Below, one piece after another: positions 5,131 through 14,308 of a DNA stretch of 52,532 nucleotides; the first letter of the stretch is position 1; each line of letters starts with the position of its first letter. The notes under the pieces were generated by a model. The model worked only from the letters and a program-made list of their open reading frames with translations, made no database searches and was not told the origin of the DNA. The translations under genes and the position numbers were made by a program. This DNA is from Saprospira grandis DSM 2844. Lineage in GTDB: Bacteria > Bacteroidota > Bacteroidia > Chitinophagales > Saprospiraceae. Location of the stretch: the NCBI GenBank assembly GCA_945888475.1, contig CAMDAB010000010.1, positions 1 through 52,532 of the forward strand, read 5' to 3'.

Positions 5131-5171
5131 AAAAAACAAAAACCACCTAAAATCGGTGGTTTTTGTTTTTT
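5131..5171. terminator. bidirectional intrinsic terminator
   Basis: A near-perfect inverted repeat: AAAAAACAAAAACCACC (5131-5147), 7-nt loop, GGTGGTTTTTGTTTTTT (5155-5171). The GC core with A/T-rich arms gives a U-tract in both directions. It sits between the convergent thioredoxin-fold and CHU_C genes and overlaps the stop codon of the latter. Confidence 0.9.
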
Positions 5172-7593
5172 ATCTCATCAATGTTACCAGACCTCTTCTT
5201 ACAATAACAGGCTGTGAACTCAAGATTTGCCACTCAATTACATAAATATAAACATCTCTCGGCAGTTCCACTCCTTTGTATTTTCCATTCCAGGCTGCTT
5301 CTTCAGCATTGTCATAGACCAATTGTCCCCAGCGGTTATATATTTTGAAGTTTGTAAGCAACGCTTTATCAAGATTTAATACCTCAAAAAGATCATTCAG
5401 ATTATCCCCATTGGGAGAGAAAGCATTGGGAATATAAAGACAATCGAGCAATACATTGATTGAATCCGCATAATTGCAGGAATTACTATCCGTAACTGTC
5501 ATATAATAGGTGCCAGCTTCAGTTAAAACCAAGGTTGAGTTTGTTGAACCATTGCTCCATAAATAGTTTACCGGTACGGCTGGTCCGTTGGTAGTAATGA
5601 CCACTTCCTCTCCGGGACAAACATAAACGTCAACACCCAAATCAAAAACAGGTAGCGGATTCACGGTTACATTAATTGTATCAGAATTTTCACAATTGTT
5701 CACATCTGTAACCTCTACCCAATAGGTTCCACTTACGCTGACATTAAAAGTATCTGCGCCGGAACCATCCTGCCACAGGTAGTTTGTAAATCCAGTTCCG
5801 GCATTTAATAAACTGGCATTTCCACATTGCGCAATATCGGGGCCAAAATTTATTGCAGGTAAGGGATATACATTTAATACGCCGACCATATCAGTAGCTG
5901 TACATCCGGCAGCATCGGTAACGGTAACAGAATAATTTCCAACTGCATTTGCTTGTAAGGATGAGTTGACAGTTCCGCTATTCCAGGCATAAGACACAAA
6001 GCCTGCACCCGCATCAAACAATACAGAATCACCCAGACATAAATTTTGATCAAGTCCAAGGTTTATGGTTGGGTTACTGACTGTTACATTAATAGAATCC
6101 CTATCAAATAAACCGCAACCAACCGGAACTTCTACCCAATATAGCCCGGAAACTGCCGCATTCAGAACCGCATTGGTTGAGCCATCACTCCATAAGTACG
6201 AATTATAAACAGTATCGAGTTGTATCGTTGCAGTACCTCCACAAAATAAAGTATCAGGACCTAAATCAGGCGCCGGGAAGTTATGTGTTGATGGCACAGG
6301 AACAATATTATTTAAATTAAATAAGGTGCTTCCATTAGCTCCATTGGCTGCGGAATAAGTAGTATTGAACCAGAAACCGGCATGTTGTATGAGACCTGCA
6401 TTTCCTCCGGCAGAAGTTACATTAAGATTGGCTGGCGTTGAAGCGGATGTTAGCCATACATATCCACCACCACCACCACCGCCTGGTCCGTGTGCATCCG
6501 AGGCAAAAATCGTATTCTGAATATTTCCGCCAGTACCTCCTCGAACATTTACGTTTAATGCCGATACAATGGAGGGAACCCTCAAATACACTGAGCCACC
6601 TGCACCGCCCGCTCCTGCACCTTCGTCTCGGGTTAGTAAAGTAACAGATGCTCCGTTGGCAAGAACAGAAAAACCATTACCAGCTATAGATGGTGCATTG
6701 ATCATTACAATTCCCCCACCATTCGCTCCATCTGCGCAGGGCTGATTATTATCTCGAAAGCCACCACCTCCTCCACCACCTAAAAATGCTTTTGCTGGCA
6801 GGGTTGCTAAGGCATAGCCTCCCAAACCAAAAATACCATTGACCCCACAACCCGAATACTCATCACCTCCACGTCCTCCTGCACCAAAATTTCCACCACC
6901 TGCAGCGCCGCAATTACCCGGACTTGTACCACCTCCTCCATTGGCTAATGGGGCACGATGTGAATCTTGTCCAGCGGGTGCAGCAGCAATTCCCTCACCT
7001 TTTTTCCCATGTAAGTTGTTTGCGTAATTATTATTGGAACAACTAAAACCGCCGGTAACCGTCGCTCCGCCAACAAAGCCACGTCCACTTACATCAATGT
7101 TTGCATTAAATATGACAGGTCCGGTTGATTCAAAAACAAGCACTCCCCCGGTTACTCCATTCCAGTTGGGACAGGTTAAGTTACCCGTTATGGTAGGATT
7201 TGAATAAACAGGCACCCGAATTAGCTGAACTGATCCCGTTGTTGTATAGGTTTGGGTTAATGGCGCTGTTAAATTAATAACATTTCCTGCAACAGAAGCT
7301 ATGTTTGCGAATTCGTAATTTCCGGCATTATTGTAAGCAGTAATTTGTCCAAAGGATGCTGTATTGGTTACATCAATAGTCGCACCTTTCATCTGAATAA
7401 TCAACACCCTGTCGCAAGCTACAAAACCAGTAGAAGAACCAACACTAATATTCAAGCCGGCAATATTGGTAACATTGGTGTAGGTGTTAACTATGCCTGA
7501 GATGTTCTCAGATTGACCAAATAATTTATTGTTAGAAAAAGCGCCAAAAATTAATGCTGTAAGCAGAATGGAAATAAATGTAATGTTTTTCAT
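5170..7593 (-). CDS. glycine-rich surface protein with type B T9SS (CHU_C) sorting domain
   Basis: An 807-aa protein from the ATG at 7593. The ATG at 7620 would lie only 5 nt from the -7 element and would precede the signal peptide. The order is: signal peptide (about 1-26); an N-terminal beta-rich region; a glycine-rich part (about 185-400) with runs of seven or more Gly; four Ig/PKD-like repeats of about 65 residues each, starting near 443, 515, 585 and 650 (pattern NLG-D...C...YLWS-GS...G-Y-V-VTD...C...I-V); and a CHU_C domain (about 722-807, IPNAFSPNGDNLNDLFEV ... YNRWGQLVYDN). The last domain directs export by the type IX system and surface attachment. The role is probably adhesin-like; the binding partner is unknown. 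Confidence 0.88.
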   Translation of the reverse strand: MKNITFISILLTALIFGAFSNNKLFGQSENISGIVNTYTNVTNIAGLNISVGSSTGFVACDRVLIIQMKGATIDVTNTASFGQITAYNNAGNYEFANIASVAGNVINLTAPLTQTYTTTGSVQLIRVPVYSNPTITGNLTCPNWNGVTGGVLVFESTGPVIFNANIDVSGRGFVGGATVTGGFSCSNNNYANNLHGKKGEGIAAAPAGQDSHRAPLANGGGGTSPGNCGAAGGGNFGAGGRGGDEYSGCGVNGIFGLGGYALATLPAKAFLGGGGGGGFRDNNQPCADGANGGGIVMINAPSIAGNGFSVLANGASVTLLTRDEGAGAGGAGGSVYLRVPSIVSALNVNVRGGTGGNIQNTIFASDAHGPGGGGGGGYVWLTSASTPANLNVTSAGGNAGLIQHAGFWFNTTYSAANGANGSTLFNLNNIVPVPSTHNFPAPDLGPDTLFCGGTATIQLDTVYNSYLWSDGSTNAVLNAAVSGLYWVEVPVGCGLFDRDSINVTVSNPTINLGLDQNLCLGDSVLFDAGAGFVSYAWNSGTVNSSLQANAVGNYSVTVTDAAGCTATDMVGVLNVYPLPAINFGPDIAQCGNASLLNAGTGFTNYLWQDGSGADTFNVSVSGTYWVEVTDVNNCENSDTINVTVNPLPVFDLGVDVYVCPGEEVVITTNGPAVPVNYLWSNGSTNSTLVLTEAGTYYMTVTDSNSCNYADSINVLLDCLYIPNAFSPNGDNLNDLFEVLNLDKALLTNFKIYNRWGQLVYDNAEEAAWNGKYKGVELPRDVYIYVIEWQILSSQPVIVRRGLVTLMR

Positions 7594-7625
7594 ATTCAGT
7601 TCAGTTAGAAAATAATCCAATTATG

Positions 7626-7858: not shown

Positions 7859-7990
7859 ATGAGCAATCATCACAAAGTTTGGGGATCTGAACGTTTTCTT
7901 ATGGGCCTTGCGCTATTTCTTATCATTTTCATGATGCTTTGGGCCTATGTTTATTTCATGAATGACGATTTTCTTCCAAAAGCAAAATAA
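7859..7990 (+). CDS. small single-span membrane protein (43 aa)
   Basis: A short open frame with polar N-terminus MSNHHKVWGSERF, one strongly hydrophobic helix (about 14-33, rich in Leu, Ile, Phe and Met) and a short charged tail ending FLPKAK. The composition is that of a real membrane peptide rather than random A/T-rich DNA, and a Bacteroidota -7 box lies upstream. I do not recognise a family. It could be a small subunit or regulator of a membrane complex. It is 88 nt upstream of the degenerate activator gene on the same strand, so co-transcription is possible but not shown. Confidence 0.55.
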   Translation: MSNHHKVWGSERFLMGLALFLIIFMMLWAYVYFMNDDFLPKAK

Positions 7991-8078
7991 CTAAGCCCCT
8001 CGGCAAAATTTACAGGAGCGGACATTACTGCATTGCAGAGATGTGCCGCTTTTTTGCTTAGTATAAAGCCAAAAACCG

Positions 8079-9449
8079 ATGCTTCAGGATATTGTTCCAA
8101 TAAAGATTTTTTTGATTTCGGACAGTAACTCATTGCTATCCGAAATTGGAGAAAAATTTAAAAAAGCATCTTTGCTGCTACTCGAAGATTTTTTTGCAGC
8201 GCTTGCCCATGCGCATCTCGAACCTGATTTCATTTTTATTTTTGGTATCCTTGAGCGAAATGGTATCGCAATAGCAAATTTCATTGAAAAACTTTCGGAG
8301 CTAAGCCCATCGACCCGGGTAATTTTTGCTGCCAATGACCCAGAATACAGGCAGGCTGTACAACTTATGAAAATAGGTATCGGAGATTATATTGCCGCTT
8401 CGGGTTTCGACAGTTTATATCTGAGTACGCTATTGGAGGCTTACTCGGGGGAAAAATGGAATCCTGAAGAAAAAATCAGGACAGGTATTGTTGAAAAATT
8501 CAGGGAGCTTGGCTTTATGGGTAGCGGAAGGAGAATGCGCAAACTGTACCGGATGATTGAAGATGCTTCGAAATCTGAGCTTTCCCTTTTGTTCGAAGCT
8601 GAGGTAGGCTGCGAATTGTTGGAAGCTGCAAGGGCAGCACATAAGCTGTCGAAAAGAAGAGAAGGTCCTTTTGTACTTTTCGATGTGCTGGCCTATCAGA
8701 GCGAAACCGTAGAATTTGAACTTTTCGGAAGGGAAAAAGACAGCAACGCCGGTATTGAAAAAAGAAAAACCGGTGCCATAGAAACTGCAAGCGGCGGAAG
8801 TCTTTGTATCGAAAACATAGATGCTTTGCCCATCCATATTCAAAGTCGACTTCTGAGGGCAATCCGTGAAAAAAAATACCTGAAACCCGGAGGACCGAAC
8901 ATTGTTTTTTGGAATACAAGACTGATTTGCATATCTTGGAAAAATCTTGAAAAATCTATCAAATTCAAACAATTGCGTGAAGATCTCTTTTATCAGATAG
9001 CTGCCTTTAATATTCGTGTCCCGTCGCTTAGAGCACGCGGGCAGGATGTCGTTTTATTGGCAAATCATTTTTTGAGAACCTTTGTCCGTGTCAATCGTTT
9101 AAAGGCAATGAATTTGTCGCAGGCAGCAAAAGATAAACTATTGGAACATTACTTTTCCGGTAATGTACTTGAGTTAAAATCGGTCATTGAAACAGCTGCG
9201 CTGCTAAGCAAGGGGGAGGAAATTGAAAAAGAAAATATAATTTTCAGAGAAAAACCTATCATTAACCTAATAAGTGACGGAGAGCAAAGTCTGGAAAAAT
9301 ACAATGAATTTATTATCAATACCTATCTCGAGAAATATGACAATGATGTATTAGCGGTAGCTGCAAGACTTGGAATTGGAAAATCGACCATATACCGTAT
9401 GTTACAGTCAAATAAAATTTCAAAAAAAACCAGCGCCCAAAATGACTAA
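8079..9449 (+). CDS. degenerate NtrC-type regulator (pseudo-receiver, inactive-looking AAA+, Fis HTH)
   Basis: A 456-aa protein with the layout of a sigma-54 activator: receiver-like domain (about 7-125), AAA+ central domain (about 145-385) and Fis-type helix-turn-helix (about 420-446, VAARLGIGKSTIYRMLQ). Nearly every catalytic position is lost. The receiver has Phe55 where the phosphorylated Asp belongs and Ala at the conserved Lys (YIAAS). The Walker A position reads EAEVGCEL instead of GESGTGKE. The GAFTGA loop is DSNAGI (221-226). Walker B Asp-Glu is Glu245-Asn246. The scaffold is still obvious (LFGREK, GSLCIENIDALP, LREDLFYQI, VPSLRARGQDV). It is probably a DNA-binding regulator that neither hydrolyses ATP nor contacts sigma-54; this is inference. 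The open frame is intact, so it is not a decayed gene. It overlaps the HPt gene by 8 nt. Confidence 0.8.
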   Translation: MLQDIVPIKIFLISDSNSLLSEIGEKFKKASLLLLEDFFAALAHAHLEPDFIFIFGILERNGIAIANFIEKLSELSPSTRVIFAANDPEYRQAVQLMKIGIGDYIAASGFDSLYLSTLLEAYSGEKWNPEEKIRTGIVEKFRELGFMGSGRRMRKLYRMIEDASKSELSLLFEAEVGCELLEAARAAHKLSKRREGPFVLFDVLAYQSETVEFELFGREKDSNAGIEKRKTGAIETASGGSLCIENIDALPIHIQSRLLRAIREKKYLKPGGPNIVFWNTRLICISWKNLEKSIKFKQLREDLFYQIAAFNIRVPSLRARGQDVVLLANHFLRTFVRVNRLKAMNLSQAAKDKLLEHYFSGNVLELKSVIETAALLSKGEEIEKENIIFREKPIINLISDGEQSLEKYNEFIINTYLEKYDNDVLAVAARLGIGKSTIYRMLQSNKISKKTSAQND

Positions 9450-9789
9450 GATAAAACTGGAATTCCTGAACGAATTGAGTGGCGGAGATGCCAAATTTGT
9501 CAGCTTAATGCTGAAAACATATATTGAAGAAACCGATAAAGAGCTGCTCTTACTTGAAGAAGCTTACCAAAATAAAGACAGAAGCAGCATTGCTTTTTGG
9601 GCACACAAAATAAAGACCTCTTTTTACCTATTGGGACTTGAACAATTAAGTGCTGTAGCGTCAAATCTTGAGCAAAATGCCAAGAATTTACAATTATCGT
9701 TGGATAATCTCCAAGAAGAGCTCAGCTATATCAGCAGCAATGCTGCCGATAGTATAAAACAAGCTAAAAGGTTGATAGAAGCGTTTTGA
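9442..9789 (+). CDS. HPt (histidine phosphotransfer) domain protein
   Basis: A 115-aa all-helical protein starting at the ATG at 9442, inside the end of the upstream gene (8-nt overlap, so translationally coupled). The motif FWAHKIKTSFYLLG matches the HPt signature H-x-(I/L)-K-(T/G)-S, with His55 as the likely phospho-acceptor. HPt proteins shuttle phosphate between receiver domains in multistep phosphorelays. Here the coupled neighbour has lost its receiver Asp and there is no histidine kinase in the window. The partners must therefore be elsewhere, or the pair works by binding rather than phosphotransfer. Confidence 0.8.
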   Translation: MTKIKLEFLNELSGGDAKFVSLMLKTYIEETDKELLLLEEAYQNKDRSSIAFWAHKIKTSFYLLGLEQLSAVASNLEQNAKNLQLSLDNLQEELSYISSNAADSIKQAKRLIEAF

Positions 9790-9830
9790 GTAGAAGAAAG
9801 ATGAAAGGATGAAGAGAATTATAATTTGGT

Positions 9831-9860
9831 AATTTGAAAATTTGAAAATTTGAAAATTTG
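9831..9860. repeat. tandem AATTTGAA low-complexity repeat
   Basis: About four units of the 8-mer AATTTGAA in tandem. They are flanked by GGATGAAAGATGAAA-type repeats (9795-9815 and 9942-9970). Similar words recur near 14360-14405, 16245-16280 and 34893-34922, always between genes. Confidence 0.7.
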
Positions 9861-9887
9861 TTTCGTCCGGCAGATGAGATTCCAAAT

Positions 9888-9931
9888 GGCTTCAACCTTT
9901 GAAAAAAAACATTAGTAGAGGACTGCGGTAT
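9888..9931. repeat. interspersed repeat family C, copy 1
   Basis: GGCTTCAACCTTTGA ... GAGGACTGCGGTAT is a diverged version of the element at 38101-38157. Part of it reappears at 9995-10031. Confidence 0.5.
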
Positions 9932-9994
9932 CATATTAGAGGAAAGGATGAAAGATGAAAGGATGAAAGAAGCGAAGAGGAACCGATCTCGTAA

Positions 9995-10031
9995 AATAGC
10001 AGAGGAGCGCGGTATTTTAATGTCGCTGTAG
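9995..10031. repeat. interspersed repeat family C, copy 2 (partial)
   Basis: ATAGCAGAGGAGCGCGGTAT continuing into TTTAATGTCGCTG closely matches 38123-38155. The core GCGGTATTTTAATG(C/T)CGC is an inverted repeat. Confidence 0.55.
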
Positions 10032-10066
10032 AGGAAAGGATGAAAGATGACATTTTGTACTAAAAT

Positions 10067-12919: not shown

Positions 12920-12952
12920 ATTTTTATACTTTTAAACCAATATCAATTGATT

Positions 12953-14308
12953 ATGCAGCAGAGCAGAATCGTAAAAAATTCACAGAGTCTCGAAAGGGAG
13001 CTGTTTTGGCTTGCCAAAGTTATCGATATCCGATTTAAGCTGCATTTCAAACTGGAGTGTGACCATAATTCAATATATGATATTGAGGTTCCCCAACTCA
13101 AAGATGACGGATCGGTTTATGCGCGGGTACTCAGGCATTTTCAAATGAACTATCAGGAGCGCTTGATACTGATTTTGAGTCTTGTGCCGCATATCCGACC
13201 ACAACTGCTCGACATTTTCTTCACCAAAAACGAGGCTTACGATCGTATTTATACAGAATTTGGCGGCCTGAAGGGAAAATATCACAGCGGTTTTTTACCC
13301 ACGGGCGAAACAGCTTCCTTTATCCTTGCCGGAAATGACCTTTCGGAGCGTATAAAAATGGTGGAGCTTTTCAGGCCCGAACATTTTTTTGCTAAACAAA
13401 ATGTTTTAAAACTCGATCTGCATCATGGGAATGAACCGCTATTAAGCAGCGGTATCGAAATCAGTGAGGAATACCTCAGTATGCTTACAACCGGGAAATC
13501 ATTTAAACCCGATTTTAGTACAAATTTTCCGGCAAAGCTTTTAACAACACGACTCGATTGGGCAGATCTGGTACTCGATCCACAGGTTTTGGGTGAAATT
13601 TCGGAAATTGCAGCCTGGATTAAGCATCAGGATACAATTATGAACGAGTGGGGGCTTAGCCGCATGCTCAAACGAGGCTACCGTTCGCTTTTTTACGGCC
13701 CGCCCGGCACTGGAAAAACGCTTACTGCCTGTCTTTTGGGAAAAACGCTAAACCTCGATGTTTACAGGGTCGATCTCTCGCAGGTAGTATCGAAATACAT
13801 TGGCGAAACCGAAAAAAACATGGCCAGTATCTTCGATCAGGCCGAAAATAAAAATTGGATTCTCTTTTTCGATGAAGCTGACGCCTTATTCGGAAAGCGC
13901 ACTGCAACAAGCGACAGTAAGGACCGACATGCCAATCAGGAAGTTGCTTATCTGCTGCAACGGGTCGAAGACTTTTCGGGTGTAGTTATTTTGGCTACCA
14001 ACCTGAAAGCAAATATGGATACAGCCTTTAGTCGTAGATTCCAGTCAATTGTATTTTTCCCGGCACCTAATTATGAGCAGCGACTCAGGCTTTGGAGAAA
14101 TACCTTTGAAGGTCAGGTAAAACTAGATTCAGATGTCGAATTCAAAACCCTTGCAAACGATTATAAACTAACCGGAGGAGCTATTATCAATGTACTTCGC
14201 TATTGTTCACTTTCTGCCCTCGATCGGGGAAGTCGCCACGTTTCGATGGACGATATTAGAGAAGGCGTTAAAAAAGAATTGAGAAAAGAAGGTAAAACGC
14301 TGGAATAG
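12953..14308 (+). CDS. AAA+ ATPase
   Basis: A 451-aa protein from the ATG at 12953, two codons inside a frame that could also open at a TTG. The N-terminal 200 residues carry no recognised domain. The C-terminal AAA+ module has Walker A GPPGTGKT (249-256), Walker B ILFFDEAD (303-310), a sensor-1 region VVILATNLK and arginine-finger context FSRRFQSIVFFP. ATPases of this sequence type occur with contractile injection systems but also alone. No sheath, tube or baseplate gene is present here, so I leave the function open. It starts 33 nt after the helix-hairpin-helix gene. Confidence 0.82.
   Translation: MQQSRIVKNSQSLERELFWLAKVIDIRFKLHFKLECDHNSIYDIEVPQLKDDGSVYARVLRHFQMNYQERLILILSLVPHIRPQLLDIFFTKNEAYDRIYTEFGGLKGKYHSGFLPTGETASFILAGNDLSERIKMVELFRPEHFFAKQNVLKLDLHHGNEPLLSSGIEISEEYLSMLTTGKSFKPDFSTNFPAKLLTTRLDWADLVLDPQVLGEISEIAAWIKHQDTIMNEWGLSRMLKRGYRSLFYGPPGTGKTLTACLLGKTLNLDVYRVDLSQVVSKYIGETEKNMASIFDQAENKNWILFFDEADALFGKRTATSDSKDRHANQEVAYLLQRVEDFSGVVILATNLKANMDTAFSRRFQSIVFFPAPNYEQRLRLWRNTFEGQVKLDSDVEFKTLANDYKLTGGAIINVLRYCSLSALDRGSRHVSMDDIREGVKKELRKEGKTLE

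Follow-up and report, generated by a model that had tools for sequence, protein, structure and literature searches.

The gene at positions 8079–9449 (+) of the window, the whole 52,532-nucleotide stretch of DNA analysed here, encodes an NtrC-type regulator that, judged by its residues, would be inactive as a sigma-54 activator. The best explanation, to which we give a probability of about 0.58, is that in Saprospira, a genus noted for its predatory marine filaments, this protein has been kept as a DNA-binding regulator, possibly steered by docking of the Hpt protein encoded next to it.

The reading frame is uninterrupted from ATG to stop, and its lack of damage had been recognised in an earlier, sequence-only reading of this DNA. 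The gene and its parts are as follows.

8079–9449 (+): pseudo-activator, receiver-like/AAA+/HTH, 456 amino acids (open frame, Pfam, AlphaFold2 (AF2) model, 71% identical orthologue)
8079–8453 (+): pseudo-receiver, residues 1–125 (AF2 model of a (beta-alpha)5 fold; phospho-Asp, Ser/Thr and Lys replaced)
8241–8243 (+): codon of Phe55 in the position of the phospho-Asp (aligned by eye without gaps; MAFFT opens a gap in that column)
8514–9023 (+): AAA+ domain, residues 146–315 (Pfam; Foldseek match to the NtrC1 AAA+ domain)
8595–8618 (+): lost Walker A, EAEVGCEL, residues 173–180 (motif comparison)
8739–8756 (+): lost GAFTGA loop, DSNAGI, residues 221–226 (motif comparison)
8811–8816 (+): lost Walker B Asp-Glu, now Glu245-Asn246 (motif comparison)
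9024–9254 (+): AAA+ lid, residues 316–392 (mostly conserved, with 2 of 11 conserved columns lost; R364L)
9291–9419 (+): C-terminal helices with HTH, residues 405–447 (AF2 model; none of 11 conserved columns lost in segment 393–456)

Pfam recognised Sigma54_activat (E = 1.1e-32) and AAA_lid_14 (E = 4.6e-14) in the protein, while the HTH was matched weakly and below its cut-off (HTH_17, E = 0.0029). Response_reg gave no match at E <= 0.01 and was also below cut-off in the 71% identical orthologue (E = 0.049). The AF2 model, built with 51 relatives (mean pLDDT 85), places an AAA+ domain between a (beta-alpha)5 domain and a helical C-terminus, the orientation of the domains being unsure because the pTM is 0.59. 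The AAA+ part superposes on active NtrC1 (1ny6_A) at 1.6 Å over 242 columns in Foldseek. Whole-chain matches of the model include NtrC1, NtrX, NtrC4, FleQ, LuxO and VpsR, with a TM-score of about 0.5 of the query because the domain orientations differ. The predicted fold is NtrC-type, with the receiver/AAA+/HTH architecture and the AAA+ fold expected of a sigma-54-dependent bEBP, in agreement with the family assignment made in the sequence-only reading; a non-AAA+ fold is ruled out by the model and the Foldseek matches.

The residues, the roles of which (arginine fingers, sensor II Arg and the other motif residues) we take to be those known from work on PspF and NtrC1, are largely replaced. 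In the receiver, which has the (beta-alpha)5 fold of a pseudo-receiver in the model, F55, A85 and A107 occupy the places of phospho-Asp, Ser/Thr and Lys, so that the triad of a phosphorylatable regulator is absent, and D15 of the acidic pocket is still present. Of the features of a sigma-54 bEBP, the Gly-Lys of Walker A (K180L), the GAFTGA loop, the Walker B Asp-Glu, R306 (R306Q, the second arginine finger) and the sensor II Arg (R364L) are absent; sensor I is also replaced, while R300, the first arginine finger, is kept. With DSNAGI in the loop, the protein has no functional GAFTGA, a feature of the GAFTGA-less bEBP homologues of the sigma-70 type, and may likewise regulate sigma-70-type promoters. 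By a substitution survey described in passages of PMC3162934, the replacements at the third and fourth positions of the loop belong to the ‘inactive’ class. The residues and motifs named in the sequence-only reading (F55, A107 for Lys, EAEVGCEL, DSNAGI and E245-N246) are all correct, F55 with the by-eye placement given above. Its wider statement that all catalytic motifs were lost stands for most of them and fails for R300 and D15.

The distribution of these changes was examined over 103 conserved columns, defined as conserved in at least 95% of 79 non-Saprospira relatives from titled genome records. The 79 intact rows were drawn from the best 80 of 547 confirmed stretches and so represent the closest relatives, not a random sample; they include near-copies (L106 is the contig of L003, and L078 and L079 look similar). 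The window protein has lost 5 of 13 such columns in the receiver, both in the linker, 37 of 66 in the AAA+ domain, 2 of 11 in the lid and none of the 11 in the HTH segment. The difference between the AAA+ domain and the HTH segment (Fisher p = 0.0005) is indicative, the columns of one protein not being independent. In this alignment the losses are domain-specific and not evenly spread.

By contrast, all 79 relatives outside Saprospira possess the receiver Asp and Lys, Walker A, the GA/SFTGA loop, Walker B, both arginine fingers and the sensor II Arg (L121, where the sensor II word was unmatched in the recount and the Arg is present, was counted as intact). The change is lineage-specific, since the relatives outside the genus are intact.

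An orthologue with 71% identity is found in a second genome of the same genus group (contig CANETR010000005.1, Saprospiraceae bacterium isolate CE-Jul18-164) and has the same motif losses as the window protein. Among the 32 AAA+ columns lost in both, 27 (84%) carry the identical new residue, which argues that the shared losses are not due to chance; the overall identity of the AAA+ domain in this window-type pair is 77%, and the receiver is the least conserved domain (63%). A codon model gave an omega of 0.042 for the pair and omega = 1 was rejected (2dlnL 351); as dS is saturated, at 4.45, this omega signals constraint only. For two conserved neighbour genes of the same genome pair omega was 0.014 and 0.02 (dS 3.3 and 2.0), so the regulator is less constrained than these two, and a third neighbour gene was saturated beyond estimate.

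A degenerate version of the gene is present in all six Saprospira-group genomes examined, two of the window type and four more divergent. The latter, referred to here as the plasmid type, are 31–34% identical to the window protein over approximately residues 133–451 and lie on contigs of 53–57 kb. Three of the four are on Saprospira plasmids: NC_016936.1 (S. grandis Lewin), NZ_CP110855.1 (S. grandis) and NZ_CP116809.1 (Saprospira sp. CCB-QB6), to which the gene L024 matches at 100, 97.4 and 79.4%, respectively. Walker A and the sensor II Arg survive in the plasmid type, which lacks the key residues of the receiver, some of the GAFTGA loop, Walker B and the two arginine fingers. Conserved columns lost in all four plasmid-type proteins number 44 of 66 in the AAA+ domain, 4 of 11 in the lid and 1 of 11 in the HTH segment; the receiver is shorter, with 12 of its 13 conserved columns changed. 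The two types have 30 lost conserved columns in common, three of which show an identical replacement in all six proteins (L244I, E266K and R306Q). Besides the regulator and its neighbour, annotated as ‘sigma 54-interacting transcriptional regulator’ and ‘Hpt domain-containing protein’, the Lewin plasmid (L043) includes purF, purN and a cluster of phenylacetate genes, and because of these it resembles a chromid. A neighbour gene in the window (12947–14308) shares 70% identity with its counterpart in S. grandis, situated on the large contig C1, and the same percentage with a gene of another genus, from which the genus group would be deep, the window setting chromosomal in type and the regulator fast-evolving.

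Degenerate relatives were also sought more widely. A contig search with the window protein as a single query gave no match; an alignment query gave matches. The family-level search covered 248 genomes, 78 of them with a match at E <= 1e-42, and from about 98 places listed 30 were taken as loci. Among the 51 non-Saprospira rows of another motif comparison one is degenerate (L021, positions 1489–2832, contig C30 of genome G051, another family): its receiver and Walker A are intact and the GAFTGA loop, Walker B and arginine fingers are lost. It is followed by two genes of 877 and 952 amino acids on the same strand. Of the same rows, two (L014 and L027) are incomplete, L017 stops short of the HTH and L023 is without a receiver. 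Loop variants in L016, L028 and L030 (GAFTDA, GSFTSA and GAFTSA) were not counted as losses. A plasmid-type query over 248 order-level genomes gave a match in 27; 28 places were listed and 11 non-Saprospira loci opened (L160–L170). No further degenerate relative was among these 11, all of which keep Walker A, Walker B and a GAFTGA-like loop (GSFTGS in L162, L164 and L165); L160 is the L003 gene again. L169 combines intact AAA+ motifs with Glu at the phospho-Asp place, possibly a first step of receiver loss. Based on these comparisons, degeneration appears to be the rule in Saprospira and to have occurred, at least in part, once elsewhere.

In the trees, the window and plasmid types, which share about 31% identity, lie on one side of a branch with support of 97/91 (96/92 in the wider tree). 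The wider tree left out L014, L017, L023 and L027, and the second tree (97/91) additionally dropped eight more distant or long-branch rows, including L021. The grouping may reflect attraction, both branches being very long; counting against this, the best match of the plasmid type among the 248 order-level genomes is the window gene. Long branches, together with the intact relatives outside the genus, are also what a decaying relic with a still unbroken frame would leave. Such a relic is highly improbable, given a gene-length open frame in all six genus genomes, omega well below 1 and losses concentrated by domain; selection and this pattern of loss led us to reject decay. Across six plasmid-type gene pairs omega was 0.076–0.131, and the pseudo-activator is evidently under purifying selection, to judge from these codon comparisons. 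The proposal of the sequence-only reading that selection maintains an NtrC-type pseudo-activator is thus borne out (omega about 0.04, and 0.08–0.13 in the plasmid type); the check it suggested, whether orthologues share the lost positions, gave the same losses in the 71% orthologue, and the gene is degenerate in six of six genus genomes. Of the two signs of decay that it had named together, orthologues with intact motifs were found, outside the genus, and relaxed selection in the window gene was not.

All six genus genomes have rpoN, and the window’s genome has two high-scoring sigma-54 activator domains elsewhere; sigma-54 itself has therefore not been lost. Loss of rpoN as the cause of the degeneration is ruled out. 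With its AAA+ fold and lid preserved, the protein could be a dominant-negative subunit that poisons hexamers of intact activators or competes for their sites, and the two other activator domains, known by domain score alone, would suit this role. We regard it as very unlikely, because R306 is lost, the matches listed from the genus genomes include no intact member of the same clade (G001–G003 have none at E <= 1e-42) and the other activator of the window genome is, among the matches listed, distant (29% identity).

The pseudo-activator gene is followed by a gene for a phosphotransfer protein with the following features.

9442–9789 (+): Hpt phosphotransfer protein, 115 amino acids (Pfam Hpt, E = 1.3e-9); its start overlaps the pseudo-activator end by 8 nt
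9604–9606 (+): codon of the phospho-acceptor His55 of Hpt (sequence, Hpt alignment)

Neither this overlapping gene nor the intact relatives outside the genus had featured in the sequence-only reading. The protein has an Hpt domain with its phospho-His, and His55, Lys58 and Glu77 are invariant columns among 28 aligned Hpts. An Hpt gene follows the degenerate gene in all six genus genomes, over the Pfam cut-off and with His and Lys kept in each; in the second window-type genome and on the S. grandis plasmid a gap of about 10 nt takes the place of the overlap. In 42 of the 79 intact relatives an Hpt-bearing frame lies directly downstream (-130 to +250 nt), 23 of these frames having at most 300 codons. 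For 26 of the 79 no Hpt was found in the DNA examined, some of which ends at a contig end. The regulator and Hpt pair looks ancestral, as it occurs in six of six genus genomes and 42 of 79 intact relatives. In other Bacteroidota an Hpt/hybrid-kinase phosphorelay probably has the intact regulator as its output, which would act together with sigma-54.

From its residues, the NtrC-type regulator of Saprospira would have lost phosphorylation, ATP hydrolysis and sigma-54 engagement. It would act by occupying DNA, either repressing genes or activating ordinary promoters; site occupancy is the simplest function, since the ATPase and sigma-54 contact are presumably gone and the HTH is untouched. The role suggested in the sequence-only reading, a repressor or DNA-bound scaffold independent of ATP and sigma-54, would be one possible form of this. 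The input could be Hpt docking without phosphotransfer, expression level alone, or none. The likeliest is a non-enzymatic input, because the neighbouring Hpt keeps its phospho-His: Hpt would dock on the dead receiver in a phosphorylation-dependent manner and alter DNA binding. Taken by itself, the more general idea of a phosphorelay read without phosphotransfer, in which Hpt, phosphorylated or not, docks on the dead receiver of the dead activator and shifts its DNA binding, seems doubtful. If it were true, an ATP-driven sigma-54 activator would have become an ATP-free, docking-controlled switch that is fixed genus-wide. A conserved docking face is questionable in the plasmid type, where the receiver is shortened and altered at 12 of 13 conserved columns. 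Hpt has also diverged more quickly than the regulator (identities of 55% and 71%, respectively, in the window type), with omega of 0.67 (not distinguishable from 1) and 0.195 in two plasmid pairs; its constraint is therefore weaker than that of the regulator, which counts against a tight role. Hpt may serve another receiver, the window’s genome having 22 receiver matches.

These observations bear on a second possibility, less probable than the main reading and held tentatively, namely a constitutive DNA-binding regulator controlled only by its level and without a link to Hpt, which would serve other receivers. It accords with the state of the receiver, which is less conserved than the other domains in the window type (63%) and in the plasmid type has changed more than any of them (12 of 13 columns), and with a terminator-like stem before the start codon (described below) that could set the level; constitutively active pseudo-receiver proteins controlled by level are described as a possibility in passages of PMC12632262. 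It leaves unexplained why Hpt adjoins the regulator in six of six genomes despite settings as different as the chromosomal type of the window and the S. grandis plasmid, and we favour the regulator kept on DNA and steered by Hpt docking.

Compared with known systems, the window protein has the domain order and AAA+ fold of NtrC1/NtrC4-type activators (1ny5, 4l4u and 3dzd) and, unlike them, is without phospho-Asp, Walker A and B, GAFTGA and the sensor residues. Passages of PMC10274813 and PMC3162934 describe bEBP homologues without GAFTGA that work at sigma-70 promoters. The GAFTGA-less homologues, comprising the NtrC proteins of Caulobacter and R. capsulatus, HupR, TyrR, DhaR, VpsR and YplP, are, like the window protein, without a sigma-54 loop and are shown or suspected to be sigma-54-independent in the same passages. 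PMC10274813 reports that phosphorylation of the Asp is used by the NtrC proteins of Caulobacter and R. capsulatus, and that VpsR uses the same conserved site; the window protein differs from this group in also lacking the Asp, P-loop and Walker B and in its coupled Hpt gene. VpsR is the model for a further alternative, reuse of the AAA+ pocket for a small ligand, as with c-di-GMP. Foldseek matched the window protein to, among others, VpsR (7v2b, a structure whose title states c-di-GMP binding), which PMC3162934 names as GAFTGA-deficient, and Walker A is kept in the plasmid type; as the window protein has lost Walker A, such reuse is unlikely.

Bacterial pseudo-receivers share with the window protein a receiver fold without the phosphotransfer residues (passages of PMC12632262); here the pseudo-receiver sits on a dead AAA+ activator and is tied to an Hpt gene, a pairing absent from the NtrC and Hpt passages of that review. 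Intact Bacteroidota operons of a receiver-AAA+-HTH regulator with Hpt or a hybrid kinase (L072–L150) have a homologous regulator and the Hpt arrangement, with all motifs present (79 of 79), unlike the window locus. Among the open-licence papers that literature searches listed, none was seen that deals with this gene, or with a bEBP homologue that has lost all of these motifs and is paired with Hpt. GAFTGA-less bEBP homologues and pseudo-receivers are known kinds; what is unusual here is the extent of the joint loss and the retention of the partner.

The comparison constitutes a natural experiment, with an intact activator and Hpt across Bacteroidota and a stripped version in one genus that keeps the HTH and Hpt. 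It may show how a bEBP turns into an ordinary transcription factor, and would offer two divergent results of that change for comparison. A 2025 review (PMC12632262) calls the switching of bacterial pseudo-receivers a continuing mystery, and with this pair the question of what a dead receiver listens to becomes testable with two purified proteins. The annotation of the S. grandis plasmid gene as a ‘sigma 54-interacting transcriptional regulator’ calls for caution.

Two elements lie upstream of the pseudo-activator.

7859–7990 (+): small open reading frame, 43 amino acids, conserved in six of six genus genomes on the contig of the pseudo-activator; one hydrophobic stretch (by eye)
8014–8055 (+): stem-loop with a T run, terminator-like, ending 23 nt before the pseudo-activator start codon

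The small frame is about 8 kb from the regulator on the three named plasmids and at the opposite contig end in G001, and weak matches to it (E <= 0.01) were found in seven others among 120 family genomes. It may or may not be part of the pseudo-activator unit; as it shares the regulator’s contig in six of six genomes, it supports common descent of the window and plasmid loci. A similar stem-loop precedes the 71% identical orthologue (z -4.3 and -5.8 for the two stems), and the stem is possibly an attenuator. Further upstream, positions 5170–7620 (-) hold an open reading frame of 816 amino acids with an NAFSPNGD-type C-terminus, presumably as in type IX secreted proteins of Bacteroidota. Downstream of Hpt, the intergenic region at 9790–10065 contains, by eye, repeated GGATGAAAGATGAAAGGATG-like and GAAAATTT units.
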